A DNA stretch of 64,000 bases, taken from positions 13,280,501 through 13,344,500 of the forward strand of contig JAGUCH010000002.1 of assembly GCA_019096065.1 (NCBI GenBank). Reading direction: 5' to 3'. Positions 32,551 to 53,301 of this stretch are shown piece after piece. The position numbers were made by a program, and so were the translations under genes. Each line of letters opens with the position of its first letter. Position 1 is the first letter of the stretch. This DNA comes from Paracyclopina nana. Its lineage: Eukaryota; Arthropoda; Copepoda; Cyclopoida; Cyclopettidae. The notes under the pieces are model-generated. The model searched no databases. It worked only from the letters and a program-made list of their open reading frames with translations, and was not told where the DNA came from.

Positions 32551-33415
32551 ATTCACATAAGTATCATAACAATAACATTGATGTAGGGCGATCCCAGCGG
32601 CCTTTATGGGCAACATTTGTGATTTTCAGCTGACACTGCTCGAGCAAAAAAACTGAGTTAGCGCAGAGACTTATATAGAAAGAGAAGTGCTACTTCTTGC
32701 ATTCTCACTGCACGCGAGCGCGCGCCAAGTGCTACTAGAGATTTTGAAAACATTTGGGTCAGCTGTTCTAATAAAATGGTCAACGGGCTGCAATGATCCA
32801 GAAAGGAAAACGCCAACTGGCACCTCTGTTTTACAACTTTTAATTCCTAATAGTTGTGAAAATATTTATAAAAGACAAAAGATAGCCCTAGCAAAATTGA
32901 GCACCTCGTAAAATAGGACTATTTTGGCTAAGTGGACTCATTTAGGAGTTATTAGCAACCAAAAGTCTGCCCCGGCCCAAATTCAGGCAGCCGCGACCAA
33001 AATTCCATTGTACTCTCTTTTGGAGCGTGCAGCAGATCTGCAAACGCACCCCCTTAAGCCTCGCCCAGTAGCACTTCTCTTGTTATATAAGTCTCTGAGT
33101 TAGCGCATTTTTGTGACTCGTAAAGTAGTTCGAAATAAAGACCCAAGCACATAAGAGTTATCAATTTTTGTGAAGGATTACTTTATGATGGTAAAATAAA
33201 ATGGTTTTAAATCTATTGTACCCAAAAAAACTTAAAACATCAAGACGTTAGAGTCCTGAAGCTATGCATTTGTAAAAACAAAGTAACCATTTACTATAGC
33301 TATTTGCCCTAAATAAAGTGGCTCGACTAATGCATACAAAATGTGATTTTGAACTCGGCTCACAAGTGTTTCTTCAAAAAACTCGGTAGATGGAGTGTCT
33401 TTGTTATGATGCTGC
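32551..33415 (+). repeat. Left outer inverted-repeat arm (interrupted by a MITE)
   Basis: Begins ATTCACATAAGTATCATAAC. After removing 32665-33096 and one target duplicate it aligns as the reverse complement of 52878-53301 almost base for base, with only scattered changes. Confidence 0.88.
32665..33096. mobile_element. Mutator-like MITE, 432 bp
   Basis: Terminal inverted repeats of 30 bp with two mismatches: the left begins AGAGACTTATATA and continues AAGAGAAGTGCTACT; the right end is its complement. It is flanked by the 10-bp direct repeat GAGTTAGCGC (32655-32664 and 33097-33106). The opposite arm holds the single, empty site at 53188-53197. A 9-10 bp duplication points to the Mutator superfamily. 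No coding capacity, so non-autonomous. Confidence 0.88.
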
Positions 33416-33460
33416 AGTATATAACCGCTCGTAAAAACTTTGAGGAGAAAATAAAAAGGC

Positions 33461-33928
33461 ATTATCTAAATTGGAGCCTTAAGTGGTGAGCTTAGAAGTA
33501 TTTAAAAAGAAAAAGTTCAAAAATGTCAAAAATGGCTCGTGTTATAATTCAGTTTACCGTTCCGACTCAGCTATTTTATATCACAGTTCTTTCTAAGTAT
33601 TTTTGGGGATATTAAAAACCTAATGGCCCTGGAATCAAAGAGAGACATAAAGTAATTTTATGCCCCCACATTCCATGGAACATTATCTAAATTGGAGCCT
33701 TAAAAGTGGTGAGCTTAGAAGTATTTAAAAAGAAAAAGTTCAAAAATGTCACAAATGGCTGTTATATACTGTAATACGATTTCCTCGTGTTATAATTCAG
33801 TTTACCGATCCGACTCAGCTATTTTATATCACAGTTCTTTCTAAGTATTTTTGGGGATATTAATACTTAATGGCCCTGGAATCAAAGAGGGACATAAAGT
33901 AATTTTATGCCCCCATATTCCATGGAAC
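33461..33928. repeat. Tandem duplication, about 221 bp unit
   Basis: Copy 33461-33681 and copy 33682-33928 both start ATTATCTAAATTGGAGCCTT and end CCATTCCATGGAAC-like. The second has about 25 extra bases containing the end of the adjoining tRNA-bearing element (TATATACTGTAATACGATTT), which the first lacks. Confidence 0.85.
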
Positions 33929-33968
33929 TAATCCAAATTCCAAAGAAGTTAGACAAAAAGGGAAGGAA

Positions 33969-34038
33969 CAACCTAAAAATTCAAACCACTAATAGTTGGA
34001 TCATTAATCCAATGCTATATCCACTGAGCTATGGAAAC
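33969..34038 (-). other. tRNA-like sequence C, left copy
   Basis: Minus strand reads TTTCCATAGCTCAGTGGATA, then an anticodon arm with a perfect 5-bp stem TTGGA/TCCAA and loop TTAATGA (anticodon AAT if read as a tRNA), then a weak B box GGTTTGAATTT. The acceptor does not pair. A fossil tRNA-like copy, not a functional tRNA. Confidence 0.5.
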
Positions 34039-34206
34039 TTCATTTAATTTGGCTGATCAAATTGACCTGGTAGAGTTCTTTACCCTAACTCTCTCAACCA
34101 CCCAAAAGTCATACATATTCTAAAAGCTTATTTCAAGGGGACTCACATGGTGTTAATTTTAAAATTCTGGCCTATGGCTTCCCATTACATAATTACAAAA
34201 AACTTT

Positions 34207-34261
34207 TAGCTCAGTACCACTACGTTTTATTGCTAAGCTCAGTACCACTTCGTTTTATTGC
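34207..34261. repeat. Short tandem duplication, about 27 bp
   Basis: GCTCAGTACCACTACGTTTT and GCTCAGTACCACTTCGTTTT occur side by side, each followed by ATTGCT. Confidence 0.75.
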
Positions 34262-34599
34262 TATTATGCATTTGAATAACCCCCACCAAAATTGTGAGAT
34301 CTAACTTTTTTAATTTCACAATCCAGTTGCTGGGATGACCAAGAAAAGAGATATAGAGGGTCACTTTTTCAAGTAGCGAAACATTTGTAACAATTTAATA
34401 TAAAGTTTGGCACTCCATATCTTCTTTCTTGACCATTCTAGCGATTTGCTTATGAAATAAAAAAGTTGGCCCTTGGGATGTTTGAAGCTCTATTCAGCAA
34501 AAAAAGCACACTGAAGAGAGCTAGAGGTTTTTTAGGATTTTATTTTATGAGGAGGATTTTAAAACTACCACCAAACAAACCCTTGGGACATAGGCTTTC

Positions 34600-34656
34600 A
34601 GATAATAAAGACTGAATCAAGAATCCAGCACTCTAACTATTGTGCCATAGGAGCAC
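34600..34656 (-). other. tRNA-like sequence B, left copy (5' half)
   Basis: Minus strand reads GTGCTCCTATGGCACAATAG, then an anticodon arm CTGGA/TTCAG with loop TTCTTGA. The T arm is not recognisable. Counterpart of 40197-40270. Confidence 0.45.
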
Positions 34657-35670
34657 CTCCAAGGAAATGTTATTATTAAAGTCCATTTTATTGCTCCCAA
34701 ACCACATGATTTTATCATGTGACAGCCTGTGATATTCACATAGCGACGAAAAACCAAGCAGCATTTTATAGGGCACGGGGCAGCCTGGTAACTTCATTAA
34801 AACACTCAAAAATTGTATAACAGAATGTAAAACTGTATATACCAAGCTGGGGAACATAAAATAGAGCTGTTCAAAATAAAATGGGCTATTCAAGATGATG
34901 TATACAAATAAGGTGAGTTCTTGTCTCTGCTTTACTATGGCACACAGTCTGACTGAGCTGTGGTAGGCTTCAAGACAAAATAATAGAATTCTGTGGATTT
35001 CACTTCCAAAATTTTCCATTGCCCATCTAAAATTAGGAAAAAATGCCTAAATTGCATACTTTTTTAAAAAACAGAACTTATCTGGGAGCTCTATTTATAA
35101 AGCTAGAGCTTAGCCCGCTTTAGAGCACTGAATTTTGATGAGAGTATCATGTTCTCAACAACAGCTGAACTTTTTTGGAAAAAATTTACTAAGGTACAAC
35201 TCAAACTACAACTCCGATCCGAACGAAATTTTGTGGGGTTCATGTAACTAACTCGAAAAACTAAAGAACGGCGGACAACAAAAACCTGAGAAATGTTTTG
35301 AAATCACTCATACTACGTCTGGTACTTTTTTAAAACAGTTCTATGAATTTAAGGTGTATGGATTAGGGAAAATTAAGATTGCTTGCATGCCTAAACATTT
35401 TGATGTCATAAAACGTACACAGAAAATCTATTTTGAAAGACAAAATCATACTAAAGAAAAGCTTCAGGGAAACTGACACAAAAATCCAGGCCAAGTGTGC
35501 ACATGAGAATTCCGGCAGAAAAAGTAGAATAAACAATTATTTGAATTTTACCGCCTTTAATGGTTAGATTGTGTGAATCAAAGTACCAACTACCAAGCAG
35601 GTTTTGTGATTGTTGTCTGCCACTCTTTAGTTTTTCAAGTTAGATAGGTTCATGGTTTCTTGGGGCGGCC

Positions 35671-36157
35671 GTACTTGGATCGACTAGGACATACTGTCCC
35701 TGGATAGACTGCAACAGATCGTCCTTGGATAGACAGACAGAACTCATAGTCCCTGGATCGACGAGACGGATAGTCCTTGGATCGACTACTATGACTTAGC
35801 AGGACCTAGGTCGACTAGAATGAACTGTGCTAGGATAGACTGACATAACTGACTGTCCCTGCATCGAAAAAACGGATCGTCCTTGGATCGACAGCTAGAA
35901 TGTACTGTACAATGTTAGAATTCAACAAAAACTTTTGTTCTATCCAAAGACTGTATGTTCTCATAGTCGATCCAAGGACGATTTGTCTTGTCGAGCCAAG
36001 TACATTTCGTTTTTCTTGTCTAACCTAATACATGTCAGTCCTGGTCTATCCAAGGACTGTGTGTTCTGACAGTCGGTCCACGGATGATCCGTTTTGTCGA
36101 TGCAAGGCCGGTTCGTTGTAGTCTATCCACGGACGATCCGTTGTCGATCCAAGGGTA
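35671..36157. repeat. Palindromic array: nine forward, nine inverted copies of a 14-bp motif
   Basis: Forward copies of GTCCYTGGATMGAC-like sequence begin near 35671, 35696, 35721, 35749, 35773, 35803, 35826, 35854 and 35879. Inverted copies (GTCKATCCAAGGAC-like) begin near 35940, 35966, 35990, 36018, 36044, 36072, 36096, 36121 and 36143. Spacing is about 25 bp and the spacers differ. The axis is near 35925. Copies vary by one to four bases. Long inverted repeats built of short tandem units are typical of foldback elements. Confidence 0.85.
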
Positions 36158-36353
36158 GGAGTCCGTTTCTTGGTACAATTACCAAATAACAAATAAAAAA
36201 AGCTTTACAAAATATAATAAACGGTGGAACAAAATTGGGCATATGTCGTGCTACCGTAGGCCGGCCGGCTACCTTTAGGCTGTTTTTTGGAACTGAGTTT
36301 TGAGAATTGATCTACTCATCAAGCCCGCTCTAGCCCGCTTGATTCCATGACTA

Positions 36354-36519
36354 ACACATCACTTGAGCTCACACGCTATGTAGTAAGAACTACTAGCTGG
36401 CGCCACCTAGGCTAAGACTAATAGTTCCCTATAGTTCAACTGAATATCTTATAATAAAGTTGAACTAGTTCCCTACCGCCTCAGCAAAAGTTAGACCCCA
36501 AGAAAAATCCCTGAGAGGT
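36354..36519 (+). repeat. Inner inverted repeat, left partner
   Basis: Reverse complement of 51139-51304 with only a few differences over about 166 bp. Contains the short palindrome TAGTTCAACT ... AGTTGAACTA at about 36435-36470. Confidence 0.85.
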
Positions 36520-36830
36520 TTTTACTTTGTAAAATGAGCTCAGACATTTTGTAAGCCTGTTTTATAATTTGTTTACATATATATACGATTTTATATGATG
36601 GAAAGTAATTTTCAAATGTTAATGAAGTTACCAGACCAGACAATCTCGACTTAGCATCTGTTCTATTACTAAGAGGGCTTGGGTTAAGAGGCCCTCAGTA
36701 GTGCAAGAGTAGCTGAAACCTTTAATCAATCAATTAAAAATTGTGCATTTTGAATTTGGCACTTTTTGGAGCTAAAAGATGTGTTAGATCAAGTTTTGTC
36801 TGGTATCTCTGATAGAGTCTGCACTCTTCT
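36519..36830 (+). repeat. Partial direct copy of tRNA-bearing element A and its neighbour
   Basis: Matches 39073-39385 in the same orientation, including one terminal inverted repeat (TATATGATGGAAAGTAATTT), but stops before the tRNA-like part. Confidence 0.8.
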
Positions 36831-37221
36831 ATAGAGCACTGAATTTTGATGAGAGTATCTCGTTCTCAACAACAGCTGAAAGGAGCTGAGCATAACCAGA
36901 CTAATAGGGTTATCGTGGAGCCCTGAGCACATACATCGAGCTGGAGACCTGAACTTTGGCACGTGCATTTGTCTTCCCATTGCGGACAATAGTTATTAGC
37001 GGCATTTTTCGATTTTCCGCCAAATGACAGACTTCCATTTTTCTCCGTTCTCCGGCGACAAAATGAGATGAATTTTTGTGTGTGACTCTCATTTTGCAAG
37101 GGCTACAACTTTTATTAATGACTTTTTTCCAGATTTGGACTCCCAAGGGCACTTGTTTATGAGCATTTTTCGTATTTTCGCGATATCTCAGACAGGCCTC
37201 AACTAAATGGGCTGAAGCAAG

Positions 37222-38077
37222 GACAAAAGCGTGGAAGAAAAGGAGTCAACATCTCAAGTCAAGACAAAGGATGATGATGACTTGATTAAGCAGCTTCAAG
37301 CTGGAAATAAGAGACCAGTTCTTCTCAAGATTGATCGAGGTCACAATATTGCTGAACTTAACCTCACCTCACCCTCACATGAACTTGAAGATGAGAACGA
37401 TTCCCGGCTTCGGAGGTCAAAACGCAATGTCAACAAGGCGATGCCTCCATTTCCTCCACATGAATCTGAGGTATGAGTGAAAAGACAATATTTACGCTTC
37501 ATTTAATTAGATGTATCTTATAGGCCTCTGACTTAGGTCAACAGCAAGTTGCCGATACTCAAACTTCGGAAATTGACAAAAGAGCAGATACTCTCTTCGA
37601 TGATGCATTAGGTCTGTCTCAATGTTTCAACATGACACCACCTTACAGCCCACCTGGCCCAAGCCAACAATATCTAGGTACAAAGAGTAAAAATTGTCTT
37701 TTTGATTGTAAATATCAGCATGTTATTTTACATGTCGATTTTACATGTCGACCATCACCAGCCAATGAGTCATTGCTCTACAATCACAAAGAAAGCTTAA
37801 TGACACCTCCAAACAATGCATCATTGGGAAATGAAAGCATGCATGGTCAGGAAACAGAAACCGATTCAGTTGCTGACTTAGGCAAGATGGGTCGTGAAGA
37901 GGGCAATGCTGATGAAAACGAGAATGACCAAGAATCAATTCAGTTCCAGGTAAAAAGATCTCAAACTAGCTAATGTGTTAAGATGTTAACTCATTTCATT
38001 ATTAGTTCGACTTTGATGAAATCTGTAACCTGTGCCTGATTCCTGATGGCCTAAATGAACTGATTGACAAGCTTTAA
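37222..38077 (+). CDS. Four-exon gene of unknown function inside the composite element
   Basis: Exons up to 37470, 37524-37677, 37762-37949 and 38006-38077 join through GT-AG introns of 53, 84 and 56 bp with matching phases, giving about 220 residues and a TAA stop. I do not recognise the family. The protein is acidic and Ser/Pro-rich and looks disordered: DDDDLIKQLQAGNKRPVLLK, then ELNLTSPSHELEDENDSRLR, a basic patch RRSKRNVNK (possible nuclear signal), proline-directed sites in MTPPYSPPGPSQ and SLMTPPNN, and a C-terminal helix FDFDEICNLCLIPDGLNELI. The 5' end is not solved: an in-frame TGA lies at 37213-37215 and no ATG opens the frame, so a first exon must lie upstream, or it begins at a non-ATG codon. 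Preserved phases argue that the gene was recently, or still is, under selection. Confidence 0.6.
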
Positions 38078-38340: not shown

Positions 38341-38960
38341 TAAATATGATATGTATTTGGAATGCATAAGAAAATTTATAGAGTCTTAAAACATGAAAAG
38401 AAATAAAAATACTATGAAAAATAGTCAATTTTTATTGTTGTAGCGGTTTTGGTACCTGAAATAAAAAATAGAGAATCATATGAAATAAATCAAAAAGTTA
38501 TTTTGGCACATGATATGATTTTTAAGCTTTGTTAGCGTGGAGATGTCAGTAGATGGTGCATGAAAAAGTATTGCTAATTCTTTTAGAAAAGATTTCATTT
38601 ACGCTTCCTAAAAAAGATCTTTTAACCATTTTAATGAAGAGTAAATTCTAGATTTTTCATTGATAGCTATTTATAAAATTACAAATATAGCATGGAATTA
38701 CTCTTTCATTTAAAAAAAGATGAATTACATAAAAGTTTATTTCGTGAAGAGGTTTTGGAAGAAATCTATTACAATAGCTCCTCTATAACCAGCTTCAAAA
38801 AGTGGTGAAACGTAATTGAGATCTTTTTTAACTTTTTTTTGTTTTGTGGGGAACCAGAAATTTTCCCAACTTTTCTGAAAGCTATACCCAGGTTGAGTTT
38901 ATGTCATTACATTATGTAACATCAAGTTCCGTACCACCTACGTAATATCTATTTATATAT

Positions 38961-39130
38961 GTAAACAATTTATAAAACAAGCTAATAAAATAGCTGAGCA
39001 AATTTTGTAAAGTAAAAATCGAGTGGCAACTTTGCGGGCTCGAGCTTGCGAGAGCCAAGTAATGCTACGAGATTTTTACTTTGTAAAATGAGCTCAGACA
39101 TTTTGTAAGCCTGTTTTATAATTTGTTTAC
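38961..39130. repeat. Hairpin element 1, about 170 bp
   Basis: Arms begin GTAAACAATTTATAAAACAA (38961) and end with the near-complement finishing TTTATAATTTGTTTAC (39130). The loop contains GGGCTCGAGCTTGCGAGAGCC. Its loop resembles that of the hairpin at 39835-40009, so the two belong to one family. Confidence 0.75.
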
Positions 39131-39142
39131 ATATATATACGA

Positions 39143-39726
39143 TTTTATATGATGGAAAGTAATTTTCAAATGTTAATGAAGTTACCAGACCAGGCAATCT
39201 TGACTTAGCATTTGATCCATTACTTTGAGGGCTTGGGTTGAGATGCCCTCAGTAGTGCAAGAGTAGCCGAAAGTGTCAATGAATCACTTAAAAAGTGTGC
39301 ATTTTGAATTTGGCACTTTTTGAAGCTAAAAGATGTGTTAGATCAAGTTTTGTTTGGTATCTCTGCTAGAGACTCTACTCCTCTGCTAAGCTTTGCTCAG
39401 CTTAGAAGAAGAATAGACAGGAATTCTAACAACAATTTTTTCTATCTGTAGTGGTAGCTCAGTCAGAAGAGCGTCGGACTCCTAATCTAGATGATCAGGG
39501 TTCGATCCCCATGCAAGGCATTTTTTCTCCTTTTTTCTGCAATGGGATTTACTTCTTGGACAATATCTGGTCAAACAGAGGAGCAACACACCTTATAAAA
39601 TACTTTATAATGTGTGTCACTTGATAAAGTAAAACGTCTGAGCCTTTATATATGTGTAGTGATATGAACTGAGACGAATTGGTAAACTGAATTATACATG
39701 CGAAAATTACTTTCCATCATATAAAA
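39143..39726 (+). mobile_element. TIR element A carrying a tRNA-like sequence, 584 bp
   Basis: Perfect 24-bp terminal inverted repeats: TTTTATATGATGGAAAGTAA plus four more bases at 39143-39166 and the exact complement at 39703-39726. Inside lie AATGAAGTTACCAG next to the left end, a tRNA-like sequence at 39448-39520 and GGTAAACTGAATTATACATG next to the right end. Both subterminal motifs recur in the B/C elements. No protein is coded, so it is non-autonomous. Confidence 0.82.
39448..39520 (+). other. tRNA-like sequence A
   Basis: Has an A box TAGCTCAGTCAGAAGAGC with a 4-bp D stem, an anticodon arm with loop CTCCTAA (anticodon CCT, Arg, if read as a tRNA) but a weak stem, and a consensus B box GGGTTCGATCCCC. 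The acceptor stem barely pairs, so it is tRNA-derived rather than a working tRNA. Six T residues follow at 39521-39526, a good pol III stop. Confidence 0.65.
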
Positions 39727-39834
39727 AAAATTATGGTGACGCGGTAATTAGGTCTTTTGGATTTTACCGAGGTGTCAAGGTAGTTAATGTAACATAATGA
39801 CTTGAACTCTATGTTGATAATAGTTATTTATTTC

Positions 39835-40009
39835 GAGCTGGGGCACGTAAAGTAGGGTCATTAAATAACTGAGCCAGGATTTTAAAATGGTAAAACTTGA
39901 GTACAGCTTTACTAGCCCGAGCCTGCGAGGGCTGTAATTGTACAAGTGTTTTTCCATTTTAAAATCCGAGGTCAGTCATTTAATGACCCTACTTTACGTG
40001 CCCTAGCTC
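39835..40009. repeat. Hairpin element 2, about 175 bp
   Basis: Arms GAGCTGGGGCACGTAAAGTA ... and its near-complement ending TACTTTACGTGCCCTAGCTC are about 60 bp each. The loop has AGCCCGAGCCTGCGAGGGCT. Related to hairpin 1 by its loop. Confidence 0.8.
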
Positions 40010-40196
40010 AAAATATACAATTTTATATTCTGTAATACGATTTTTGAGTGTTTTAATGAAGTTACTGGGCTGCCCCGTGCCCTAGAAAATACTGCTCGGT
40101 TTTGAGTTGCTATGTTAATGTCACTGGCTCTCATGAGCTAGCATCCCGTGGTTTGGGAGCAATAAAATAGACTTTTAAGATACATTTTTCGCAGAG

Positions 40197-40270
40197 GTGC
40201 TCCTATGGCACAATGGTTAGAGCGCTTGGCTCTTGATTCAGAAGTTTAGGGTTCAAATCCCAGTCATTCC
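40197..40270 (+). other. tRNA-like sequence B
   Basis: GTGCTCCTATGGCACAATGG with a D arm of Gln/Glu-tRNA style, an anticodon loop CTCTTGA, and a B box AGGGTTCAAATCCC with a 3-bp core T stem. The acceptor is weak. Followed shortly by a seven-T run (about 40276). Confidence 0.6.
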
Positions 40271-40343
40271 TTAACTTTTTTTATTTCTTTATCTGGCTTA
40301 AGTTATGGTTAAAGTCCTGTACATAGCATCCAATCTTCATGAT

Positions 40344-40415
40344 GTTTCCATAGCTCAGTGGTTAGAGCATTGGAATGCTAATCCAACAGTCTGTGGTTCA
40401 AACCTAGGATGATCC
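40344..40415 (+). other. tRNA-like sequence C
   Basis: TTTCCATAGCTCAGTGGTTA with a 4-bp D stem GCTC/GAGC, a perfect 5-bp anticodon stem TTGGA/TCCAA around loop ATGCTAA (anticodon GCT), and a B box TGTGGTTCAAACC. T and acceptor stems are poor. Six T residues at 40420-40425 would stop pol III. No long variable arm, so not a true serine tRNA. Confidence 0.62.
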
Positions 40416-40530
40416 TCTCTTTTTTCCAACTTCTTTGGAATTTGAATTACTTCCATGGAATATGAGGGGCATTAAATTGCTTAAAATCCCTCAAATTTGA
40501 TTCCAGGGCCGTTAAGTATTTAATATCCCC

Positions 40531-40867
40531 TGGTGCACACCTGTATTTTAGCAACCTTGTATTGCGCATTATTCAGCTATTGTCTCAATTACTAAGAATG
40601 CTAAGAAGCTCAATACAGAATAATCCGCCATTGCAATAAGAAGTCCAATTTCTTAGACTTTGGCCCAGCGGCCTCTATTTCAGGACTTATAGTGAGAGTA
40701 TCAAGTCTTATATAGCGGCCTCATCCTCGGGATCTATCCAGGCCAAATAGCCCCCTTGATTTCGGCCCTATCTCGTCTCGTCCTCGGCCTCGTCCTCGGC
40801 CCCCGGCCTCGACCTCGGCCTCGACATCGACCTGGAGACAAGGTAGTATTCATTCAGGTCATCACCA
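40531..40867 (+). repeat. 5' LTR
   Basis: Begins TGGTGCACACC and ends CATCACCA. Contains a GC-rich stretch of repeated CCTCGGCC-like units near its end. Matches the 3' LTR except at one position by eye. Confidence 0.93.
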
Positions 40868-41231
40868 AATACATGGCGCATCCAACGGTGGGGCCGGTAC
40901 CCGCGCACCCTGAAAAGTGCCCGACCGGCCATTTTGAGCTGGACTCATAACATTGTCAATAGACTGTGCAAGTGAGTCAGCTAACTAAAACTTTCTTTCA
41001 TTCACGTGGGAAAACCGAATCACGGAGCGGTCCTTTGCACTGGGCTTTGACTTGCCGCGCGGCTTCCCCACCGGCTCAAAACTGTCAACAGACTGTGTAA
41101 AGTGAGTCAGCTAAACTAAAAACTAAAACTTTTCTTCCCGTGTGAGAATTGTCAATCTATGGGGCGTTGCGCTGTGACTTGCCGCGCGGCCATCCCCACT
41201 GGCTTAAAATTATGAACTCTTTCCTTATGAT

Positions 41232-44200
41232 ATGTCTGACAAGAATAGTGATCACAAAGAAGACGATGACCAGCCAATAGTCATTGTCAACGAAAATCAA
41301 GACCCACATCCTGATCAAGACCAAAATCCCGACCGGGCAGAGACTCCAAGTTCTGCTCTAAGAAGAAGCTTGAGGATTCAAGGATTGCCCCCAAGTGCTG
41401 AAAGGGAAGTATTGCCTCATATATTTCCGCAGGCCTGCAAACTACTCTTCAATTTGAGTATCACACCCAAGTTGTCTGGTGGGGAAATCACCAGGCGACA
41501 ACTAGCCTTTTTGGAAGACTGGGATTTGACTGACTCCCCTATTCAGTGGAGCAACCGCAGTACTCCTCAAGCCTTGAAAAACCGGGTACCCACTGATCAA
41601 AACAATCCTGGTCCAAGTCAACAGCCGCACGGCAACATCAACTTGGACGGCAATTCATCTCCGAGTCCAAATACTTCAGGAGACAACGAAGAAAGCCCCA
41701 ATATAACCATCATGGGGGGAGATGACAAGACTCCTTCTAGCAGCAATGACAAAACTCCTTCTGGCAGCAAGGATCCCTCTCCAGACCCGAAGCCCGCCCA
41801 GACTGATGCCTCGAAAGGAGCCCGAAAAAAGACCTCCAACGTTGACAAGGCCAAAGCTTACAAGAAAGCCATGAAGGCGGTGGATCAATTCAAGGCCACC
41901 ATCAAAGAGGTGAACACCTTTTGCAGATCCATAAGGATCACGGCCAGGAACTGGGACAACCGCACGGAAATTCCAGAAACTCGATACATAAAGGAGGTTC
42001 TTGAAAAACTGGCAAAGGGCAAGGAGGCTATGCAAGCATGCTTCAAAGAGGTTGAAAAGCACCAGACGGCCAAGATCGACATCACGAGAGTGCTCAATGG
42101 CTTTGACCAAGAGAACAAAGCGGTCGACAACTTGGTCACACGACTTGAAGATTGGCTCCAGGCATGTCAAGAAGCGGAGTCCACCGGGATCAGAGTCTTG
42201 CCTCACCCGGAAAAGTCCTTCGACGAGCAGAGCTTCAACGAGGCTTTTCAGGAACCAGTCTACTCTTCAGAGTTTGCAAAAAATCTGGAAACCACATTGC
42301 ACCGAGAACGTCAAAAGGAGTCTGTTTCGGCGACCGCCACCACAGTGCCTCCCACGGAGCCTCCCACAGAAAAGAAGAAATCAAGCGAGACAAAAAATAA
42401 GCGTGACAAATCAAAGTCTGCCACGCCATCCGTCATATCGTTGTCAGAACCCAAAAAGCACACCCAAAAGCTGCCAAACGTTCAACCGCTGCCAGAAGAG
42501 GTGGACATTGGATGGACTAGAGAAGCCTTGAAGGAAAAGGCTGCGCAGCTCGAAGCGGCTATTCGTAAGCCAGCAACCTCCGCCGAGATCATTCACGCAG
42601 TCACGTCCTTGGAAGCAAAAATTGCCATATATGCACAACAGTGGCAAGAACTCTTGGAAATTAGTCCTTCAGTAGCTGCACAGCACGACCGGCATGATCT
42701 GGACTATCACAGGATCATCCAAGTTGCGAAGAAAGCCGCTAGTGTCGTTGCAACTCAAGAGCAAATTCTGCGCACGCATTTGGACAAACTAGCCAAGGGC
42801 ACTGTGTTCAAAAAGGGTGATAGATCCACAAAGAGCTACTCCCCTCCATTTGACGAGCTCCACCAATACACGGTGGGTGGGCTCAAGCTCAAGTACGACG
42901 CTAAGACCGACTCTTACAAAAAGGTTGGCCGCGTTCCTGGGAGCCAAGGGGGAGGGGAACCTGATGGAGATCCCTCTGACTCATCTGATTCGAGCTCAAG
43001 CTCAAGTTCGGATTCAAGCTCTTCGTCGTCTGACTGGTCACGGAAAGACAAGAAGAAGAAAAAGAAAAAGAAGAAGTCTTCATCAAGCGACTCAGACTCG
43101 GACCGCGACAAAAAGCGAAAAAAGAAAAAGAAAAAGCAGGATTCTGACGACGAAGACTTCTGGAACTCAGATTCGTCTGAGGACGAAAAGGAGAAGAAGA
43201 AGTCCAAAAGGCGCTCGCCACCATCTGAGTTGTCTTTGGGATCATTTGGCTCCCATCGCTCGTCCAAGTCCAGTAAGTCGAAGCCCAAGCACCGTGCGGT
43301 CAAGTTGGAGAACATTAAGATGCCAAGGTTTGCCAAGGAGGGAGACTACTTCATGTTCCGCGACAAATTCAAATTGTTTGTACACAAGGACAAGCAATTG
43401 AGCTATCCTGAGAAATACATCCGATTATGCGACGCTTGCGAGGGCGGTCCGGGGGAGACCTTCGTTGCCAACCAGGATCGAAACAAGAAAGGTTATTATA
43501 GAGCTCTCAAAAAATTGGACAAAGAGTTCTACAACAAGGATCGACTGCTGGACCATGCAACCTTGACGCTCCAGAACCTTCCCCCTATCGACATCAAGAA
43601 AAAAGACACAATTGTGACAGTGCGAACGCATTTGAATACGTTCATGGCTCATTTGCGATGTTGCACCAAGGGCAAGATGTCGAAAGGCGAACGCCAAGCT
43701 TATGCAACCATGGCCCTCCAAAACATCTCGTTCACGGAGAATACCAAAGAACATGTCATTACGTATTTGACTGGCCTGGGACATCATCGTTTCACCATCA
43801 AGTTGTTCGATGGATGGGCCTCAAGCCTCATGAAGCACCATCTCGATGCACTCAAGCCCCTTCAAGTGAGCACTCCAGAGGCGCCCGCCAAGTCGGTGTA
43901 TCCATCCAAGAAATACGAAGACTATAAGCCGAGTTTTGCTAAAGGAAACTACCAATGGTACAACAAGTTGGCGATGTCAACCATGTGCAACGAAGAGACA
44001 GCAGACCCTACTTACGCATCTTCAGGTGACGAGGGGGCGTGCGCCAAAGTTCTCTTCAGTGTAGTTGCCCAGGACGACCAGTTCACCTTCCTTGTATGTC
44101 CGCTATGCAATGAGGAACACAAGATCCCCGATTGCACCAAGTTTCGCGAAGCTTCAAACAAGGACAAGTACTTCTTGGTCAAGAACAGCGGCGCGTGTTT

Positions 44201-44525
44201 CCGCTGCCTGCGAGGTAGACATCACAAACCTCAATGCAACAAGTTGTCCTGGACCTGCTCCAAGTGCGGTTCGCCAGACCACAACTCGTGGCTCCACAAA
44301 GCTTGTGAAGAGTTGAAGTACTCCCGAGCGGGACCCTCGAAGGAAGATCTTGCGAAAGGTGACGACAATCAGCTGTCCAGCAAAGACTTGCTAGACCAGT
44401 TGAAGAAGCACCAGGACAAAGGCATCGAGGAGGTGAGGAAAATGTGTGCATCCTTGGAAAAGCGCATGGAGGGTAAGGCTCCATCTGAGAGCAGTGTCAA
44501 ACATTCAAATACGACAAAAAATTAA
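41232..44525 (+). CDS. Bel-Pao gag region
   Basis: Fossil-element gag of about 1,100 residues: an N-terminal disordered part, coiled-coil segments, a Ser/Lys/Asp low-complexity linker (around 42960-43240), the Pao-type gag core (KMPRFAKEGDYFMFRDKFKL region) and Cys/His knuckles near the C-terminus (CPLCNEEHKIPDC, CFRCLRGRHH, CSKCGSPDH). The low-complexity linker is unusually long. Confidence 0.9.
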   Translation: MSDKNSDHKEDDDQPIVIVNENQDPHPDQDQNPDRAETPSSALRRSLRIQGLPPSAEREVLPHIFPQACKLLFNLSITPKLSGGEITRRQLAFLEDWDLTDSPIQWSNRSTPQALKNRVPTDQNNPGPSQQPHGNINLDGNSSPSPNTSGDNEESPNITIMGGDDKTPSSSNDKTPSGSKDPSPDPKPAQTDASKGARKKTSNVDKAKAYKKAMKAVDQFKATIKEVNTFCRSIRITARNWDNRTEIPETRYIKEVLEKLAKGKEAMQACFKEVEKHQTAKIDITRVLNGFDQENKAVDNLVTRLEDWLQACQEAESTGIRVLPHPEKSFDEQSFNEAFQEPVYSSEFAKNLETTLHRERQKESVSATATTVPPTEPPTEKKKSSETKNKRDKSKSATPSVISLSEPKKHTQKLPNVQPLPEEVDIGWTREALKEKAAQLEAAIRKPATSAEIIHAVTSLEAKIAIYAQQWQELLEISPSVAAQHDRHDLDYHRIIQVAKKAASVVATQEQILRTHLDKLAKGTVFKKGDRSTKSYSPPFDELHQYTVGGLKLKYDAKTDSYKKVGRVPGSQGGGEPDGDPSDSSDSSSSSSSDSSSSSSDWSRKDKKKKKKKKKSSSSDSDSDRDKKRKKKKKKQDSDDEDFWNSDSSEDEKEKKKSKRRSPPSELSLGSFGSHRSSKSSKSKPKHRAVKLENIKMPRFAKEGDYFMFRDKFKLFVHKDKQLSYPEKYIRLCDACEGGPGETFVANQDRNKKGYYRALKKLDKEFYNKDRLLDHATLTLQNLPPIDIKKKDTIVTVRTHLNTFMAHLRCCTKGKMSKGERQAYATMALQNISFTENTKEHVITYLTGLGHHRFTIKLFDGWASSLMKHHLDALKPLQVSTPEAPAKSVYPSKKYEDYKPSFAKGNYQWYNKLAMSTMCNEETADPTYASSGDEGACAKVLFSVVAQDDQFTFLVCPLCNEEHKIPDCTKFREASNKDKYFLVKNSGACFRCLRGRHHKPQCNKLSWTCSKCGSPDHNSWLHKACEELKYSRAGPSKEDLAKGDDNQLSSKDLLDQLKKHQDKGIEEVRKMCASLEKRMEGKAPSESSVKHSNTTKN

Positions 44526-44536
44526 TTGCGCGTCAT

Positions 44537-47500
44537 GTGGCCAGATCAAATAAACGTGTTGGCCATGTGACAAAAGCTAATAATGACTTTGGGCAGGGTA
44601 TTGCATCGGAGCGTGATAAGAAAATGATCATCGTCGCGAATCTGACGCGAATCTTCAGACATTTGGAAATGCCAAAACTGACTAAAGTGTTAAGTGCTGT
44701 CCAGCAAGGTGAGTCTCTCTTGCCCAAAGATCAAACTGTACTTTTTCCAATTGTGCCACTATACGTATCACATCCAGATCAACCTGACAGTGAGCTGTTT
44801 GTGAATGGGTTTCTAGACACTGGTAGTGAAATGACATTCATCACTGAGTCGGTAAAAAATAAACTCAAAATAGTGGGGGTGCCAGACAATCAAAGCTTGC
44901 AATTTGTGGGTGCTCACTCCAAAATAAAGAGTGAAAAGATAAAGGTGATGCTGAGGCCAGCCAAGCCAAAGCCTCCCACAAAACGGTATGTGCTCACGGT
45001 GAACACCATTAACAGTTTGCAGCCCACCATGAGGTTGCCACCAATCGGGTTGTTGCAATCAAAATATGAACATATAAAACAATGTGACTTTCCTACTTTT
45101 GCAGAGGGTGCTCCTGAGATCTTGGTAGGTCAGGATAACTTTGATTTGATTTGCAGCCTCAAGACAGTGTGTGGTCCACAACGAGAAGATCCAGTGATAC
45201 AGCATACCCGATTGGGGCCCACAGTGTCATATTCAGAAAACCCATCCAAGAGTCTGGTGTGCACCTCCCTAAAAAGTGAAAGCAGTGATAATCATTACAG
45301 TGCAGAACCACCCCCTTATGAAGCCTTGAAAGTGTTGTACGAATTGGAAAAGTACCCTGAAGAACATGTGAAGCCCCTAAGTGTCAATGAGAAGCGAGCT
45401 CTAGAGATTCTGGAGCAAACTCGTCAGTTGCCAAGTGGTGAATACGAAGTGCCGGAACTTTGGCGACTGGGGGAGCCTGACTTCTTATCGAATTATTACG
45501 AAGTCTTAGTTGACACCCGTGATGTTGAGAAGAAATTGCTCAGCAGAAACCAAGCAGCTTATGATAAGGCGTGCGCCGAAATCCAACAGTGGTTGGACCT
45601 TGGTTTCATCAGGTGTCTCGATCCTGCATTGGAAAAGATCACTGATGGCAGGTTTCTGGCATGGCTGTTTGTCAACAGGCTCGATAAGCCATCAATGCCC
45701 GTGCGGGTTGTCTTTGATGGAACCCGTAAGTCCAAGGACGGGAAGTCGTTGAACGATGCTTTGCTGCCCGGCCCCAAACTCCAGACTGATTGCTACGATA
45801 TCATGCTTCTTGCAAGAGAAAAGCCTGTGTGCTTCACCAGTGACATCAGCAAGATGTACTTGCGATTCAAGCTGAGGCCCGAAGACCGAAAGTACCATCG
45901 TTTTGTGTGGCAGGACAAGGTCTATGAGTTCATGTCAGTCCCATTTGGAACTACGGCAGCCCCATGCATGGCACTGTACTGTGTTCAGAAGCATGCGGAA
46001 TTGTACAAAGAAAAGTACCCAGTGGCGTACAGACTCATTAAGACCTGCCTATATGTCGACGACTTCATCGCAAGTGTTGAGAGCACTGAGGAATTTGTGG
46101 AAGTCTCCAAACAACTCTTGGAGATCATGGACGCTGCCAAGTTGCCATTGCGCAAATGGACATGCTCAGATGCCGCAGGGCTTGGCCACATTCCACCTGA
46201 ATGGCGTGCCTCGACGTACCACGTCAAGGAAGAAGACGCTGAAACAACAAAGGCTTTAGGGATGCACATCGACCAAACGACTGACACTATCTTCTTCGAA
46301 AAACCCTCGTATGAGCCGTTCAAGAACATTCCGCTAACCTTATGAACCATGGTCAAGTACACCCCAAGATTGTTCGACTTATTAGGCTTGGTCAACCCGG
46401 TCACATTGCCTGCCAAATTGTTGATCCAAGCGGCGTGCGCCATAAGGTCGTTACTCAAGATCAATTGGGACACAGATCTTTCCAAAATCGGGACAGAAGA
46501 AGCCAATGAAATTGTAACAAAGTGGAACATGTATGTCCAAGATCTGGATGACATCGGGGGTATCTCAATCCCACGAGGACTTCGACACAAGGCTGCTGGG
46601 AAGAAGTATCTTCATGTCATGTCAGATGCAAGCGACGTAGCATATGCGGCATGCGCCTACCTTGTCTGCCACTACGAAGATGCAGAGACCACATCAACTC
46701 TGGTGACCTCAAGAATGAAGTTGTGTCCCTTGAATGAAATCCGATCCATTGCAGAAAAAGAGTTACTTGGAGCAGTTCTAGGAGCAAGAATTGCATGTCA
46801 CCTGCACAGACTTTATGAAGGCATTGATGATGTCTTTTTATGGACAGATTCCAGAGTGGTTCTGCATTGGATTTCAAAACCTGCCAGAAATTGGAGAGTA
46901 TTCGTCGGAAGACATGCGTCAGAAATATTTCAAACGACGCACCAATGGTCATGGCGTCACATCAAGGGCACCTTGAATGCTTCGGACAAAGCCACTCGTG
47001 GTGTCACGGCAAAAGAGCTAGCCACAGACCAGGCCTGGTTCAGTGGCCCAGCTTTCATCAAAGATTCGCCAGAAAACTATCCCGCTGAAAACATCGACCT
47101 CACCAATGACGACAAAGCAATTGTGGAGAAATCTGCGAAAAAGTCGTTAATAAATTCAGCCATGCAAGAATTTATTAAAGCGGGGGAGGGCATCATCCCA
47201 GACCATCTGAAATTGACAAAGCGGATCAAGATGAGATGGAAAAGTTGGAGGTCCACCGAGTTCATGTTCGACATAGCCAAGTTCAAATATGGCTACCTGG
47301 TCAGGAAGTTGGCTTTCTTCATGAGATGGAGGAACAAGGCAATTGACAAGGAGATGATCGTGGCCAGCGGTGAACCTGGTCCCATGGAGATCACCCATGC
47401 GGAAAGTGCACTGGCAGGCATCTTTCAGCAGCAGGAATTTGCTGAGGAGCTCGACTACCTGTACAGGAACAAAAAGTGGCCTCAGTCATCACAGCTAGCT

Positions 47501-49078
47501 TCGCTCAATGTGTTTATTGGCAAGCATGGTGATCTGCGCATGAGGGGGCGGACTTACAAAGGTGAGCCCACCTGGATTGGGCGAAATCGACTGGTGATCC
47601 CCGAAAAGTTGGCTGTACAGCTGTGTGAGCATCTTCACCAGCAAATAGGGCATGGCTATGGCCCAGTCACCATGGCAGCGACTCTCCAAACCAGGTACTA
47701 TGTTCGCAGTGCTAAGGCTATCTTTCAGAGTGTCACCCAGAGTTGCTGGTTGTGTGCGATCGCAAGAGCAAAGGTGGTAAGACAAGTCATGGCTCCATTG
47801 CCGTCAAACTTCTTAGTGTCAGCTGAGCAGATGTTCCCGTTCAGAAGGATCTCGCTGGACTATGCTGGCCCCTTTGTTGTGAAATATGGCAGAGGCAGCA
47901 TCAAGGTTTATGTGCTCATAGCTCATTGCCAAGATAGCAAAGCTATCCATGCCGAGGTGACCCCTGACTTGACGGCGAACGCCTTAAAAAATGCTCTGGA
48001 TCGTATGATTGCAAGGACTGGAGTGCCTCAGCAGATCCGCAGTGATCAAGGGGCAAGCTTGAAAAAGATTCGTCTTGAGATATATAATAATCCAAGACAC
48101 AAAGAGTTGACTGAAAAGCTCGACTCAATGGACTGGGCTGAAGTGAGGAAAAGTGCATCAGAAATTGGTGTTCAAGATTGGCGACTTGCCCCCCCGTATG
48201 GGCCCAACTGTAACGGTTTGGCTGAGAGTTCCATAAAAAATTGGAAGAGAGCTCTTTACAAGATCTGCGGGGAATCTGTGTTGACATTTGACGAGTTCTC
48301 CACCTTGACCAAGAGGGCGGAGAGTATGGTCAATGCCAGGCCGATCGGCAATATAGATGGGCACATATTGACGCCCAATCACTTCCTCACGAGGGGGCCT
48401 GGAGGAGACCTCATCCCCAGTATTGACCCCAAGGACATTGAGACTTTACCAAAGAGGTACTCGCTGATGGAGAAGTGTCTGCATCACTTGTGGGAGTTTT
48501 ACATCCAAGGATGGCTTTTGCGCATCCAGAAATTGCCAAAGTGGCAAAACTTTGTGCGATCACTAAAAATCGGCGATCCTGTGATTATGATTGATCCCAG
48601 GAAGTATGCCAAGAGAAGCAATTGGCGACTGGCCGTTGTGGACAAGGTGTACACCAATGCAGATGGCATGGTACGTCGAGTCATCATCAGATATGCTCTC
48701 ACCATGAAGGACAAACAAGGGAAAGAGTTTGTTGCCTTTCATTACAAGGAGCGCCCAATCCAGTTCGTAATCCCAATGCCAATCTTAGCCGAAGAGGAAG
48801 CAGCTGAATTAGTGCCGCCTTTAAAAATCAGAAAAGGCACACTGATGGAAGAACCAGTCTCAGAGGCCTTGCCTTTTGAAGGACCCTCCACTGAGCCACA
48901 TAAACCTGGCGAACTAGTTGATGATTGGGAAGAAGACCTGGAAGATGCATTCGAGCAAGCCGATGATGGAGAAAAAGACCTCTTGATCCACCTGGACCAA
49001 GGCTTAGATTTCTTACATGGTCCTATTGCTTCGCGCACACGCTCCCAGAGAAAAACTCCCCAGCCCCAGCTAAATTGA
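44537..49078 (+). CDS. Bel-Pao pol region (protease, RT, RNase H, integrase)
   Basis: Shows an aspartic protease (LDTGSEMTF), reverse transcriptase (ISKMYLRFKL, CLYVDDFIAS), an RNase H-like segment (HVMSDASDVAYAA), an integrase with an HHCC zinc part and a catalytic core (RISLDYAGPF, IRSDQGAS), and a C-terminal DUF5641-like domain (GDPVIMIDPR). These are the Bel-Pao hallmarks in the usual order. The region looks nearly whole, with about one break. Confidence 0.9.
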
Positions 49079-49879
49079 CAGTTGTGAGCCCATGGAGCTC
49101 AAAAGAGAGGCCGCACGGCTGATCTTACCTGGCTGCAGAAGACTTCGTCCTGGTTGCAGAAGACATCGTCCTGGAAGCAGAAGATTACATCGATCAACAA
49201 ATGAAATTGCATCGATTTTATCATTGTTATTAAAAATAGCATGCAAGTGAGCTGTCCAGCGCAATTTCAGTCTTGTTTGCATACTTGCAGTTCAACGACT
49301 GAAAGGGCAAACGGCCTGTGCTGCGCAAATTTCATTGCTACAAGCGTCGCGCCCATTCAAACAGGGCAGTAGCTTTGAACTCAATTGCATTGCTAATTTA
49401 TTATTGTTATCTCATTATTGTTAGGGAGATTGAAATGTGTGCTGCGCAGCGAAAAGCAAGAAACTTCGGAAAAATCATGCCTTTGCGACGTGTAAAACTT
49501 CTCAATCAAAATCTGGCATTTCGCGCATGCATGGCATTTTCATCTCATATTATTATAACCTGCGTGTTAAAATTGTTTGTTTTTTCTCTTGTTTTGGAGC
49601 TTAACTGCGGTTGATGCATTTTTGGCGCCTAAATTTGAATTGCAACTGCACGTGCCGGGCGGCGTGTCAGCGATTTTGAGTGCCTTCTTTAAAATTCAGA
49701 TGTTGGCAGCAAAATCTTTGTGAGCTGATATGACCGGGCTGTGCAGCTGCGCGCGAGTTTTTGCTCAACTTGACAGTTATGCTTATATCCGAGTTTCCCT
49801 TCCATATTTCCATGTATTATGGCATATCTCTAGCAAACCTTACCCAAAACAATGTCTGTTTTGGGGAGGGGGCTGGATT

Positions 49880-50216
49880 TGGTGCACACCTGTATTTTAG
49901 CAACCTTGTATTGCGCACTATTCAGCTATTGTCTCAATTACTAAGAATGCTAAGAAGCTCAATACAGAATAATCCGCCATTGCAATAAGAAGTCCAATTT
50001 CTTAGACTTTGGCCCAGCGGCCTCTATTTCAGGACTTATAGTGAGAGTATCAAGTCTTATATAGCGGCCTCATCCTCGGGATCTATCCAGGCCAAATAGC
50101 CCCCTTGATTTCGGCCCTATCTCGTCTCGTCCTCGGCCTCGTCCTCGGCCCCCGGCCTCGACCTCGGCCTCGACATCGACCTGGAGACAAGGTAGTATTC
50201 ATTCAGGTCATCACCA
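49880..50216 (+). repeat. 3' LTR
   Basis: 337 bp, same as the 5' LTR apart from one base by eye. Preceded directly by a purine-rich tract (GGGGAGGGGG). Confidence 0.93.
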
Positions 50217-50581
50217 TCCCCCAAATTGCTTAGAAAGAAATGTGACATAAAAGAGCTGAGTCGGATCGGTAAACTGAATTATAACACGAGGAAATTGTAT
50301 TACAGTATATAAAATGTAAAAGTTTCACTGAGGTTTTTTTAAGCGTATGAGGGCTCAGAATTTTTGGTTGGGGAGCGTATCTAAGGATTTGTTTTGCCTA
50401 TTTTGTCTTCAATCTTTAAAAGTATGAAGGCTACATCAAAAATAATTACATCATTGGAAACCTCTCATTGAGTAGATTCTGAAATCATAAAAATATCTTT
50501 ATATTTACTAACATTTTATTAAATGCAAATTCAAACTCAAGACCTTTTATTATTGTGGACATTACTATTAATGGGGATATA

Positions 50582-50665
50582 CTAAAATGCGCAACATGCG
50601 CGACAAAGTACTAAAATGCGCGACATGTGCGCCTACTAAAAAGCGCGACATGCGCGACAAATACT
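50582..50665. repeat. Short tandem repeat, three units of 25-29 bp
   Basis: Units are CTAAAATGCGCAACATGCGC, CTAAAATGCGCGACATGTGC and CTAAAAAGCGCGACATGCGC, each with a short tail. A fourth partial unit (CTGAAATGCGCGACAG) is at about 50887. Confidence 0.8.
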
Positions 50666-51138
50666 GATGTGCATTTTTTTCTTAGTACCTTGTCCTTATA
50701 GTATGAACAGATAGCAAAAATCCCACCTTTCCAGCTTTCAGAAAATAATTAAGAGAAAAAGCTAAAAAACAGTTTTGGGACGCCCAATGTAAGAAGTGAT
50801 CGGGCATCTAATATGTTCTCTTTGTTGCCTGTTTCCTAGCATGAATTCTCCATACCAACTTTTTGTTGTCAGGCATCTTAGTGCCTACTGAAATGCGCGA
50901 CAGCATCCAAAACTTGCAGAAAATCACTGTCAAATTGCCTAAAAACCTTTGCAATGGGCTCTCATTAATAATGAAATAAAGGGGTGCAATAATGCCATCC
51001 ATTAAAAACAAAACAAAGCTATTAACCTATTGGCTATAGCAAGAAGCGAAACAAATGGAAGAAATTGGCCTTGCACATTTTTCTTTCCCTCGCTGCGCTC
51101 GGATGAAAAATAGTTGCTCGGTTCTCAAATTTTTTCCG

Positions 51139-51304
51139 ACCTCTCAGGGATTTTTCTTGGGGTCTAACTTTTGCTGAGGCGGTAAGGAACTAGTTCAACT
51201 TTATTATAAGATATTCAGTTGAACTATAGGGAACTATTAGTCTTAGCCTAGGTGGCGCCAGCTAGTAGTTCTTACTACATAGCGCGTGAGCTCAAGTGAT
51301 GTGT
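51139..51304 (-). repeat. Inner inverted repeat, right partner
   Basis: Reverse complement of 36354-36519, with the same internal palindrome TAGTTCAACT/AGTTGAACTA. Confidence 0.85.
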
Positions 51305-51305
51305 G

Positions 51306-51679
51306 CTGTTATAGTGCCCTATTCTTCTACTTAGCTTTGCCCAGCTTTTTCATCAGATGTCAAATATAGAAAAGAAATTGTATCATAAATGTTGTTGTGA
51401 ATCAGTAGCTCAGTCGGTAAAGCATTGGTCTCCTTTGCCAGATGTCCAGGGCTCAATCCCCACTCAAGAAAGATGTACTTTTTCACCTTTTTTCTCTAAT
51501 GGGAAATGCCTGGTCCCATTTCATGTTGCCAAACAGAGGCGTGACACACCTTATAAAATACTTTATAATGTGCGTCACTTGATAAAGCAAGGTGACAGAG
51601 CTTTATATGTTTAGTTGAATAAACTGAGACAAATTGGTAAACTGAATTATACATACGAAAATTGCTTTCCATCATAAAA
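51306..51679 (+). mobile_element. Truncated copy of tRNA-bearing element A
   Basis: From the tRNA-like part to the right terminus it follows 39448-39726 (shared GACACACCTTATAAAATACT, GGTAAACTGAATTATACATA and GAAAATTGCTTTCCATCATA). The left terminus is missing. Confidence 0.7.
51399..51471 (+). other. tRNA-like sequence A, second copy
   Basis: TAGCTCAGTCGGTAAAGC, an anticodon arm TTGGT/GCCAG that pairs fully allowing G-T, loop CTCCTTT (anticodon CCT), and a B box CAGGGCTCAATCCCC with one change from consensus. Ends in a T-rich stretch. Better anticodon stem than copy A. Confidence 0.58.
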
Positions 51680-51984
51680 AAGTAGCTTTTTCTGGTTCAG
51701 TTCCAAGAAGTGCCAAATTTGCAGCACAATTTGTCACCAACTTTTGGTATTTGATAAATTTATTGAGAAGCAATGAACACCCCTAGTTTTCGCTTCGATC
51801 AAAGCAGTGCATTGGTTTGAGCTCAACCTTTGTAAAAAAAAATTCCAAGAATGGCCGGACACCTGCAGTTGAGAGCGTGATACTCTCATCAAATTTTTCT
51901 GCTCTGGGTTTTACCTAAAGCGTCTTTAGTTTTACCAGATGGATGCCAATTTTATTTAATACGAGCCGCCTAGATACCCTGCAT

Positions 51985-52212
51985 ACTAGTTCAACTGTAT
52001 TATAAGAGAGAGCGGCAATCTTGGGTAGCTGAGATCAATGCGAGCCCTCCAAAATTTGCGAAGGTCGAACTTATTTACTTGGCGAGGTGGAGTGACAGAT
52101 TTCCTAAAAATTGCGCCACCTATGACTTCGACCAGAGCTTCGACCTTTGCAATCTGCTCAGCAATGTGCGTTGCATGATTGCCGCTCTCTCTTATAATAA
52201 AGTTGAACTAGT
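51985..52212. mobile_element. MITE, 228 bp, with about 35-bp inverted ends
   Basis: Left end ACTAGTTCAACTGTATTATA AGAGAGAGCGGCAATC, right end its complement with about one difference and a short length change. The internal sequence is not coding. The ends share TAGTTCAACT with the palindrome inside 36354-36519 and 51139-51304. Target duplication unclear. Confidence 0.8.
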
Positions 52213-52245
52213 AAATCCGTATATACAAAAAACAGCATCATACCC

Positions 52246-52319
52246 AACCGCACCCAATAGCACGATACCGCACCCCGCACCGAACCGCACCCAATAGCAC
52301 AATACCGCACCATACTAAA
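52246..52319. repeat. Tandem repeat, 37-bp unit
   Basis: AACCGCACCCAATAGCAC then ATACCGCACC occurs at 52246 and again at 52283. A related ACCGCACCGAACAGCACCC is at about 52429-52447. Confidence 0.75.
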
Positions 52320-52449
52320 AACCACACCATAACAAAAAGAGAAATAAAAAAATTCAATATAATAAGAAAAAATTCATTATCACAGAGAGTAAAAATAATG
52401 GCCAAAAAACACGCCAAAAACAGGGCTACCGCACCGAACAGCACCCATG

Positions 52450-52877
52450 GTAGTAAAACCAGGCTATGATATAAAAATTACTTTGAGGCATCTCATGACC
52501 CAAAAGCTGACTGTACCTCATGAGTTAGGTCCCAGAGAGTCCAAAACCAGCCCTAACTCAAAAACTTTACAACTCAGTAAATCATTAGGGGGAAAAGTAC
52601 ATAGGGCAAGCATCTTATACGCCAAGGGACAAATGTCTTGAGGGATTAAGCCTTTAGGGGCAAATATCCTAGAAGCAAAAGACATGCAGCCGATCAAACT
52701 ACATTACTTCAATGATACTCATATGCGCGTCCGCTCCTGTGTGTCTAAATTGTGGACCCATGCATCAGGTCAACTAAACATAGTCCATTTTTAGTTTCCT
52801 CTCCTCAATTTCTAGGCAAAATTTTCGTGGCGTATCGCAGCCGCAGTACAGCAGCCTATTCATCAATCATATAGACA
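52450..52877. other. Unassigned DNA inside the composite element
   Basis: No gene, no internal repeat seen, and no partner in the left half. Confidence 0.4.
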
Positions 52878-53301
52878 GCAGCATCATAACAAAGACACTC
52901 CATCTACCGAGTTTTTTGAAGAAACACTTGTGAGCCGAGTTCAAAATCACATTTTGTATGCATTAGTCGAGCCACTTTATTTAGGGCAAATAGCTATAGT
53001 AAATGGTTACTTTGTTTTTACAAATGCATAGCTTCAGGACTCTAACGTCTTGATGTTTTAAGTTTTTTTTGGGTATAATAGATTTAAAACCATTTTATTT
53101 TACTGTCATAAAGTAATCCTTTACAAAAATTGATAACTCTTGTGTGCTTGGGTCTTTATTTTGAACTACTTTACGAGTCGCAAAAACGCGCTAACTCAGT
53201 TTTTTTGCTCGAGCAGTGTCAGCTGAAAATCACAAATGTTGCCCATAAAGGCCGCTGGGATCGCCCTACATCAATGTTATTGTTATGATACTTATGTGAA
53301 T
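52878..53301 (-). repeat. Right outer inverted-repeat arm, uninterrupted
   Basis: Reverse complement of 32551-33415 without its MITE. Holds the empty MITE site GCGCTAACTC at 53188-53197. Ends ATACTTATGTGAAT. Confidence 0.88.

Follow-up and report, generated by a model that had tools for sequence, protein, structure and literature searches.

Probable Helentron-type elements carrying tRNA-derived segments in a transposon nest of the copepod Paracyclopina nana

The HINE/DINE-1 elements, rolling-circle elements that derive from Helentrons and are non-autonomous, are characterized, in the sections of two reports drawn on here, by insertion into TT, subterminal inverted repeats and, past the second of these, a palindrome (PMC4067079, PMC2374699). 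Helentrons are reported to capture protein-coding gene fragments, with none in the mite families studied, as far as the same sections go (PMC4067079). DINE-1 of Drosophila melanogaster is reported to have neither RNA polymerase III (Pol III) promoters nor similarity to tRNAs (PMC2374699). Promoters derived from tRNA are known, in the portion of the literature consulted, from two kinds of elements that move through RNA, short interspersed elements (SINEs) and small long terminal repeat (LTR) elements (PMC10886601). Here we describe a 64,000-bp stretch of the P. nana genome (contig C2:13280501–13344500, hereafter the window) in which two dispersed elements, A and B, and a relative of A, termed A', carry tRNA-derived segments inside a nest of insertions. 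We consider A, B and A' to be non-autonomous elements of the HINE/DINE-1 type with captured tRNA genes as cargo, at a probability of roughly 0.78. Repeats in the window were charted with self-BLAST and inverted-repeat searches, and the genome searched comprised 92 Mb in 10 contigs (C-numbered). The eukaryotic nature of the window is evident from its spliced genes and its retrotransposons of animal type.

Element A was complete in the window (38946–39725, minus strand, 780 bp), with an inverted repeat at the 39725 end, a body, a second inverted repeat (from 39143) and a palindrome extending to 38954. Element B was approximately 800 bp long, also on the minus strand, and divided into a left part (39821–40530) and a right part (50217–50311), the latter with an end motif shared with A. 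Searches of the genome returned 463 candidates for A and 698 for B. In each case 40 were scored, window copies counted in, and all 40 matched near full length, at 93–100% for A and 92–100% for B. The common end motif had 713 genome matches with at most one mismatch, compared to zero for the reversed pattern. The inverted repeats of both elements were approximately 45–49 nt long and 80–87% identical, one being terminal and the other set back behind the palindrome. The palindrome of A measured 184 nt, ended 8 nt from the terminus and had a calculated folding energy of −46.5 kcal/mol as single-stranded DNA (z −10.9). At one locus (L056:394–489), two facing B ends formed a hairpin, to which the Rfam model mir-3327 gave 47.5 bits, below its cut-off of 85.

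Thirty copies of A and six uninterrupted copies of B were read in detail. The ends of A were exact in 28 of the 30 copies. On the plus strand, the base immediately outside was adenine on the left in 24 of these 28, on the right in 24 and on both sides in 20. Adenine outside both ends on the plus strand means, on the other strand, insertion between T and T. The corresponding base of B was adenine on the right in 6/6 copies and on the left in 4/6. Empty sites of A were sought by searching the joined flanks of A copies against the set of fetched loci, and no target duplication was seen at three natural empty sites (L057, L058 and L063). The alignment of L057 to L040 (70% overall) was ungapped at the junction, and L058 and L063 matched adjoining repeats at 90–91%, with one base fewer in a run of adenines. 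Two other candidates, L056 and L065, were uninformative, being A copies directly adjacent to another element's end. The remaining matches were self-matches or too gapped to judge.

The tRNA-derived segments were located on the plus strand, one in A (39448–39519) and two in a row in B (B1, 40199–40271; B2, 40344–40415). They contain box A and box B of Pol III promoters and are followed by T-runs. The boxes were scored by sequence pattern. None of 5000 shuffles of either consensus contained both boxes 30–60 nt apart together with a T-run. Among the A copies, box A was kept in 26/30, box B in 25/30 and both in 22/30. B1 had both boxes in all six B copies, and B2 had box A in five of the six and box B in none by the pattern used.

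The Rfam tRNA model matched B2 in the window at 40351–40407 with 34.5 bits, in agreement with the tRNA-like sequence proposed in a previous sequence-only reading of this locus. Of 16 further sources, 9 gave matches to the model with E values up to 1, and 3 reached the curated cut-off, namely L081 (the best, 43.6 bits), L083 and L059. The match in L081 covered model positions 8–63 of 71, and the acceptor stem has therefore been lost. A tRNA search of the genome yielded 6042 loose candidates, of which 63 were scored. A stretch of 81 bases on C4, 90% identical to the A segment, matched the whole tRNA model (35.0 bits). Intact tRNA genes in A or B were ruled out with ARAGORN, which detected no tRNA gene in the window or in 37 sequences holding A or B (0/37). 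The program detected a tRNA gene in 19 of 20 stretches taken from genome tRNA matches, the exception being the C4 stretch. Among these 19 tRNAs, the nearest to the A segment was tRNA-Lys(TTT), with 76% identity over 58 nt.

Instead of the capture of a tRNA gene, a SINE insertion could have supplied the tRNA-derived part. Promoters derived from tRNA commonly come from SINEs. An origin of this kind was proposed, in the part of the report available, for small LTR elements whose LTRs contain tRNA-derived sequence (PMC10886601). However, T-runs follow each segment, as for a tRNA gene, and B carries two segments in a row, so that we regard a SINE source as possible but rather unlikely. Membership of A itself in a SINE family was ruled out by the position of the segment, 500 nt inside A, and by the lack of a duplication at the three empty sites.

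The assignment of A, B and A' to the HINE type is based on TT insertion, as seen for A, on the subterminal inverted repeats and on the palindrome that follows the second of them. Like HINE/DINE-1 elements as characterized in the sections cited (PMC4067079, PMC2374699), A and B are short, non-coding and abundant, with many dispersed copies and defined ends. The 3' inverted repeat is set back in both, with the palindrome past it near the 3' end, the elements cluster side by side, and A inserts at T|T without duplication. They differ from those elements, to the extent these are covered in the excerpted source, in their far longer inverted repeats and palindrome and in the tRNA-derived segments that they carry (PMC4067079). 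The sequence-only reading had named no described family that combines tRNA-bearing sub-elements with long inverted arms and a spliced non-transposase gene. The presence of tRNA-like sequence on mobile units was real, and the units were HINE-like, with a known anatomy and an unusual cargo.

Several observations weigh against this assignment. With approximately 45 nt for the inverted repeats and 184 nt for the palindrome, both features far exceed in length those of the mite HINEs described in the sections consulted (PMC4067079). In 8 of the 28 A copies, one outer base was not adenine. The single usable empty site of B (L081) aligned over 79 bases with two extra bases. The consensus A segment did not fold into a cloverleaf as RNA (z −1.2). 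No autonomous partner was found either: five matches to the Helitron Rep exceeded the cut-off in the genome, all on C2, and in the one Rep/helicase locus of the five that was read (L082), there was no endonuclease match, no A or B end and no similarity to the window. This locus (C2:17148500–17158400) encoded Rep and helicase. Upstream there was a ubiquitin hydrolase-like frame, preceded by a 172-bp tandem repeat. A search for inverted repeats at the ends of the locus led nowhere.

Some of these features would fit cut-and-paste miniature inverted-repeat transposable elements (MITEs) that have long inverted repeats and duplicate one or two bases on insertion. Long inverted repeats are present, the adenine outside each end of A can be read as a one-base duplication, and the two extra bases at the empty site of B are in line with a two-base duplication. 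In contrast, the inverted repeats of A are not both terminal, one lying behind the 184-nt palindrome, and its three empty sites show no duplication. We therefore consider a MITE origin of A and B unlikely.

For the HINE-type reading, the order of parts on the minus strand would be a target T, an inverted repeat, the non-coding body, the second inverted repeat, the long palindrome and the second target T. A Rep/helicase encoded elsewhere may peel off one strand, the palindrome would serve as terminator, and the peeled strand would be copied into a TT site. An ancestor element probably picked up tRNA genes, which would then have been copied on as passengers while decaying.

The tRNA segment might instead be a working part of the elements, with a Pol III promoter driving transcription that aids transposition. 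The segment is present in A, A' (51319–51681, minus strand, a fragment identified by BLAST with 74% identity to A) and B, and both boxes persist in most copies of A and in B1. The parts of A and B that align are confined to the palindrome with the inverted repeat, the end motif and the 5' half of the tRNA, and the spacing from the end motif to the tRNA 5' half is 211 nt in both. This match is weak evidence and need not mean shared descent, since the 5' half is similar among all tRNAs. Between A and A', 54 of 75 positions were identical in the segment compared to 208 of 277 elsewhere, with no extra conservation. Variation within A was higher in the segment and the flank upstream of it than in most of the element (0.03–0.06 per site in the stretch 421–570, which holds the segment, versus 0.001–0.04 elsewhere). 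Within B, B2, which lacked a recognizable box B, was the most variable part (0.08–0.14), whereas B1 was near average (0.03). As judged from sequence comparison, the evidence on a function of the segments was thus mostly against it, no selection on them being apparent, and a role as a working part seems doubtful.

SINEs and terminal-repeat retrotransposons in miniature (TRIMs; Cassandra, Helenus and Ajax) resemble A and B, in the portion of the report available, in being small and mobile and in having a Pol III promoter derived from tRNA or 5S (PMC10886601). Unlike A and B, they move through RNA, and A and B contain no LTRs and have the tRNA part in the interior rather than in a head or an LTR (PMC10886601). 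A cluster of tRNA-Cys genes in Arabidopsis annotated as Helitrons is a second likeness, as tRNA genes are suspected there of riding on rolling-circle elements (PMC10701932). According to the sections consulted, the genes in that cluster form local arrays and no reliable Helitron-finder prediction was obtained, whereas A and B occur in hundreds of dispersed copies with exact common ends (PMC10701932). Limited reading of the open-licence literature turned up no other clear case of rolling-circle elements with tRNA-derived cargo.

Rather than one element, the 20.7-kb interval that contains A, A' and B is a nest formed between two genes by independent insertions, because its arms belong to one dispersed family and the inserts show ends, duplications and genome copies of their own. 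The sequence-only reading had described two facing arms of approximately 424 bp, 20.7 kb apart, and these were real, with self-BLAST matches far beyond chance (32541–32664 against 53311–53188, 97.6%, E 2e-54; 33095–33423 against 53199–52870, 96.7%, E 2e-154). The right arm was a complete 430-bp element in an A|T target (52872–53300, plus strand). The left arm (32552–33423, minus strand) was indeed a facing copy but not a single piece, as its inner end was missing, stopping at 33423, and it was interrupted by an element with terminal inverted repeats (32665–33096). The latter was located between copies of the 10-bp duplication GAGTTAGCGC (32655–32664 and 33097–33106), and 40 of its 202 genome candidates, window copy counted in, were scored at 95–100%. 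We take it to be Mutator-like by duplication length alone.

For the 430-bp element, 40 of 298 loose genome candidates were scored, window copy counted in, and all were near full length with 95–100% identity. Its flanks had the form A|element|T in 29 of 30 copies. Three copies could be compared with uninterrupted sites (L003/L011, L007/L015 and L004/L010, each pair representing one genomic place), and the junctions showed neither gain nor loss of a base. The element inserts between A and T with no target duplication.

A single giant non-autonomous transposon with the 424-bp arms as its termini, which captured the spliced gene between them and was later invaded, had been offered to explain the interval. 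It would account for two facing arms with approximately 97% identity and DNA of several kinds between them. It fails because the arms are dispersed small elements, complete in themselves and found singly across the genome. No other inverted pair closer than 30 kb was found among the 40 listed copies of the 298 candidates. The two pairs within that distance (C2:9218085/9235542 and C2:17409420/17419335) had the same orientation, and two facing pairs were 60–63 kb apart. Eight of the 29 other copies fetched shared all 430 bp of the right arm without a difference. In the left arm, the outer 102 bases matched the right arm and further copies exactly, and the inner part was nearer to several other copies (98.4%) than to the right arm (96.8%), so neither arm has its closest relative in the other. 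Moreover, the gene product was found once, with distant paralogues only. We regard a giant transposon as extremely improbable.

The gene in the middle of the interval consisted of four open frames on the plus strand (exons 37216–37470, 37524–37677, 37762–37949 and 38006–38077) joined through GT-AG introns, after two exon edges were adjusted by reading the sequence. The four-exon structure put forward earlier was thus confirmed, but its 5' part is absent. When open frames of at least 80 aa from the paralogues were compared with the window, the C-terminal ones alone matched, all at 37216–37958, and the gene is therefore interpreted as a 5'-truncated, spliced-looking paralogue of a host gene. A low-copy repeat (36879–37216) with two copies on C3 (96%) ends at 37216, where the gene homology starts. 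The product had one genomic copy, and paralogues with 35–41% identity were found at five places, one of them 7 kb beyond the window. With one copy and paralogues at this distance only, the gene was ruled out as amplified element cargo. The product and one paralogue gave no Pfam match over the cut-off (one was sub-threshold) and no PDB match.

Element B is split by a Pao LTR retrotransposon (40531–50216, plus strand), which is therefore younger than this B copy. Its LTRs were 337 bp long and 99.7% identical, and it was flanked by a 5-bp duplication (TCCCC). Matches to the Pao peptidase and reverse transcriptase, the LTRs and the short target duplication together place it in BEL/Pao. The direct and inverted pairs said to make up most of the interior were confirmed, but their extent was overstated, because this one retrotransposon occupies 9.7 of the 20.7 kb. 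Of the alternative origin also suggested, a nest formed by repeated insertion and inversion, the insertions were borne out, and nothing seen required an inversion. Reversed fragments of B (33460–34043 and 34612–34864, minus strand) were identified by BLAST, and a fragment of A (36515–36830, minus strand) was 92% identical to 39069–39384.

The other parts of the interior were small repeats. An inverted-repeat search revealed an element at 35245–35646 with the 8-bp duplication GGTTCATG. Next to it was an element of approximately 505 bp, largely palindromic (35660–36168), with 31 other listed copies at 91–98%, one of them partial. Five head-to-tail copies of this element with 5-base spacers were present at C1:10980436–10982965, an arrangement expected for rolling-circle products. 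A 166-bp sequence (36354–36519) had an inverted partner at 51139–51304 (98.8%). Of 737 candidates, 40 were scored, and the matches so listed included no third copy. As an origin of this pair, an inversion that duplicated its breakpoints was considered and rejected, since no intact element was restored by it. Further to the right, an inverted-repeat element of 230 bp that has TA at both ends (51984–52213) had 33 other listed copies (88–100%). A satellite-like unit (52275–52573) formed arrays of approximately 3.5 to 8 kb elsewhere, with halves facing opposite ways (C5:5749388–5757110, C5:4711573–4716603, C3:9302322–9307971 and C7:3034560–3038067). Six A'-like pieces at C3:6514151–6542332 were 4.6 to 6.8 kb apart in one orientation, which suggests a larger tandem repeat. 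Outside the interval, a 156-bp tandem repeat at 4954–5285 comprised approximately two copies (93% matching).

The locus illustrates that several families nesting close together can mimic one giant inverted-repeat element. The tRNA-bearing sub-elements are the valuable part of what the sequence-only reading had pointed out, the rest being an ordinary transposon nest. Genes for tRNA are an unusual cargo for rolling-circle DNA transposons. Given exact ends, empty sites and hundreds of copies, the pick-up of small-RNA genes by rolling-circle transposition becomes testable. The A and B families likewise make testable the activity of the Pol III promoters and the share of genomic tRNA-like sequence that such elements have spread. 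A further-reaching reading, conceivable but improbable, takes A, A' and B as the first rolling-circle DNA families described that are built on tRNA-derived Pol III units, which would have been kept from family to family in more than 700 copies because their Pol III transcription helps strand opening or replication. If this were true, they would be a class II counterpart of SINEs.

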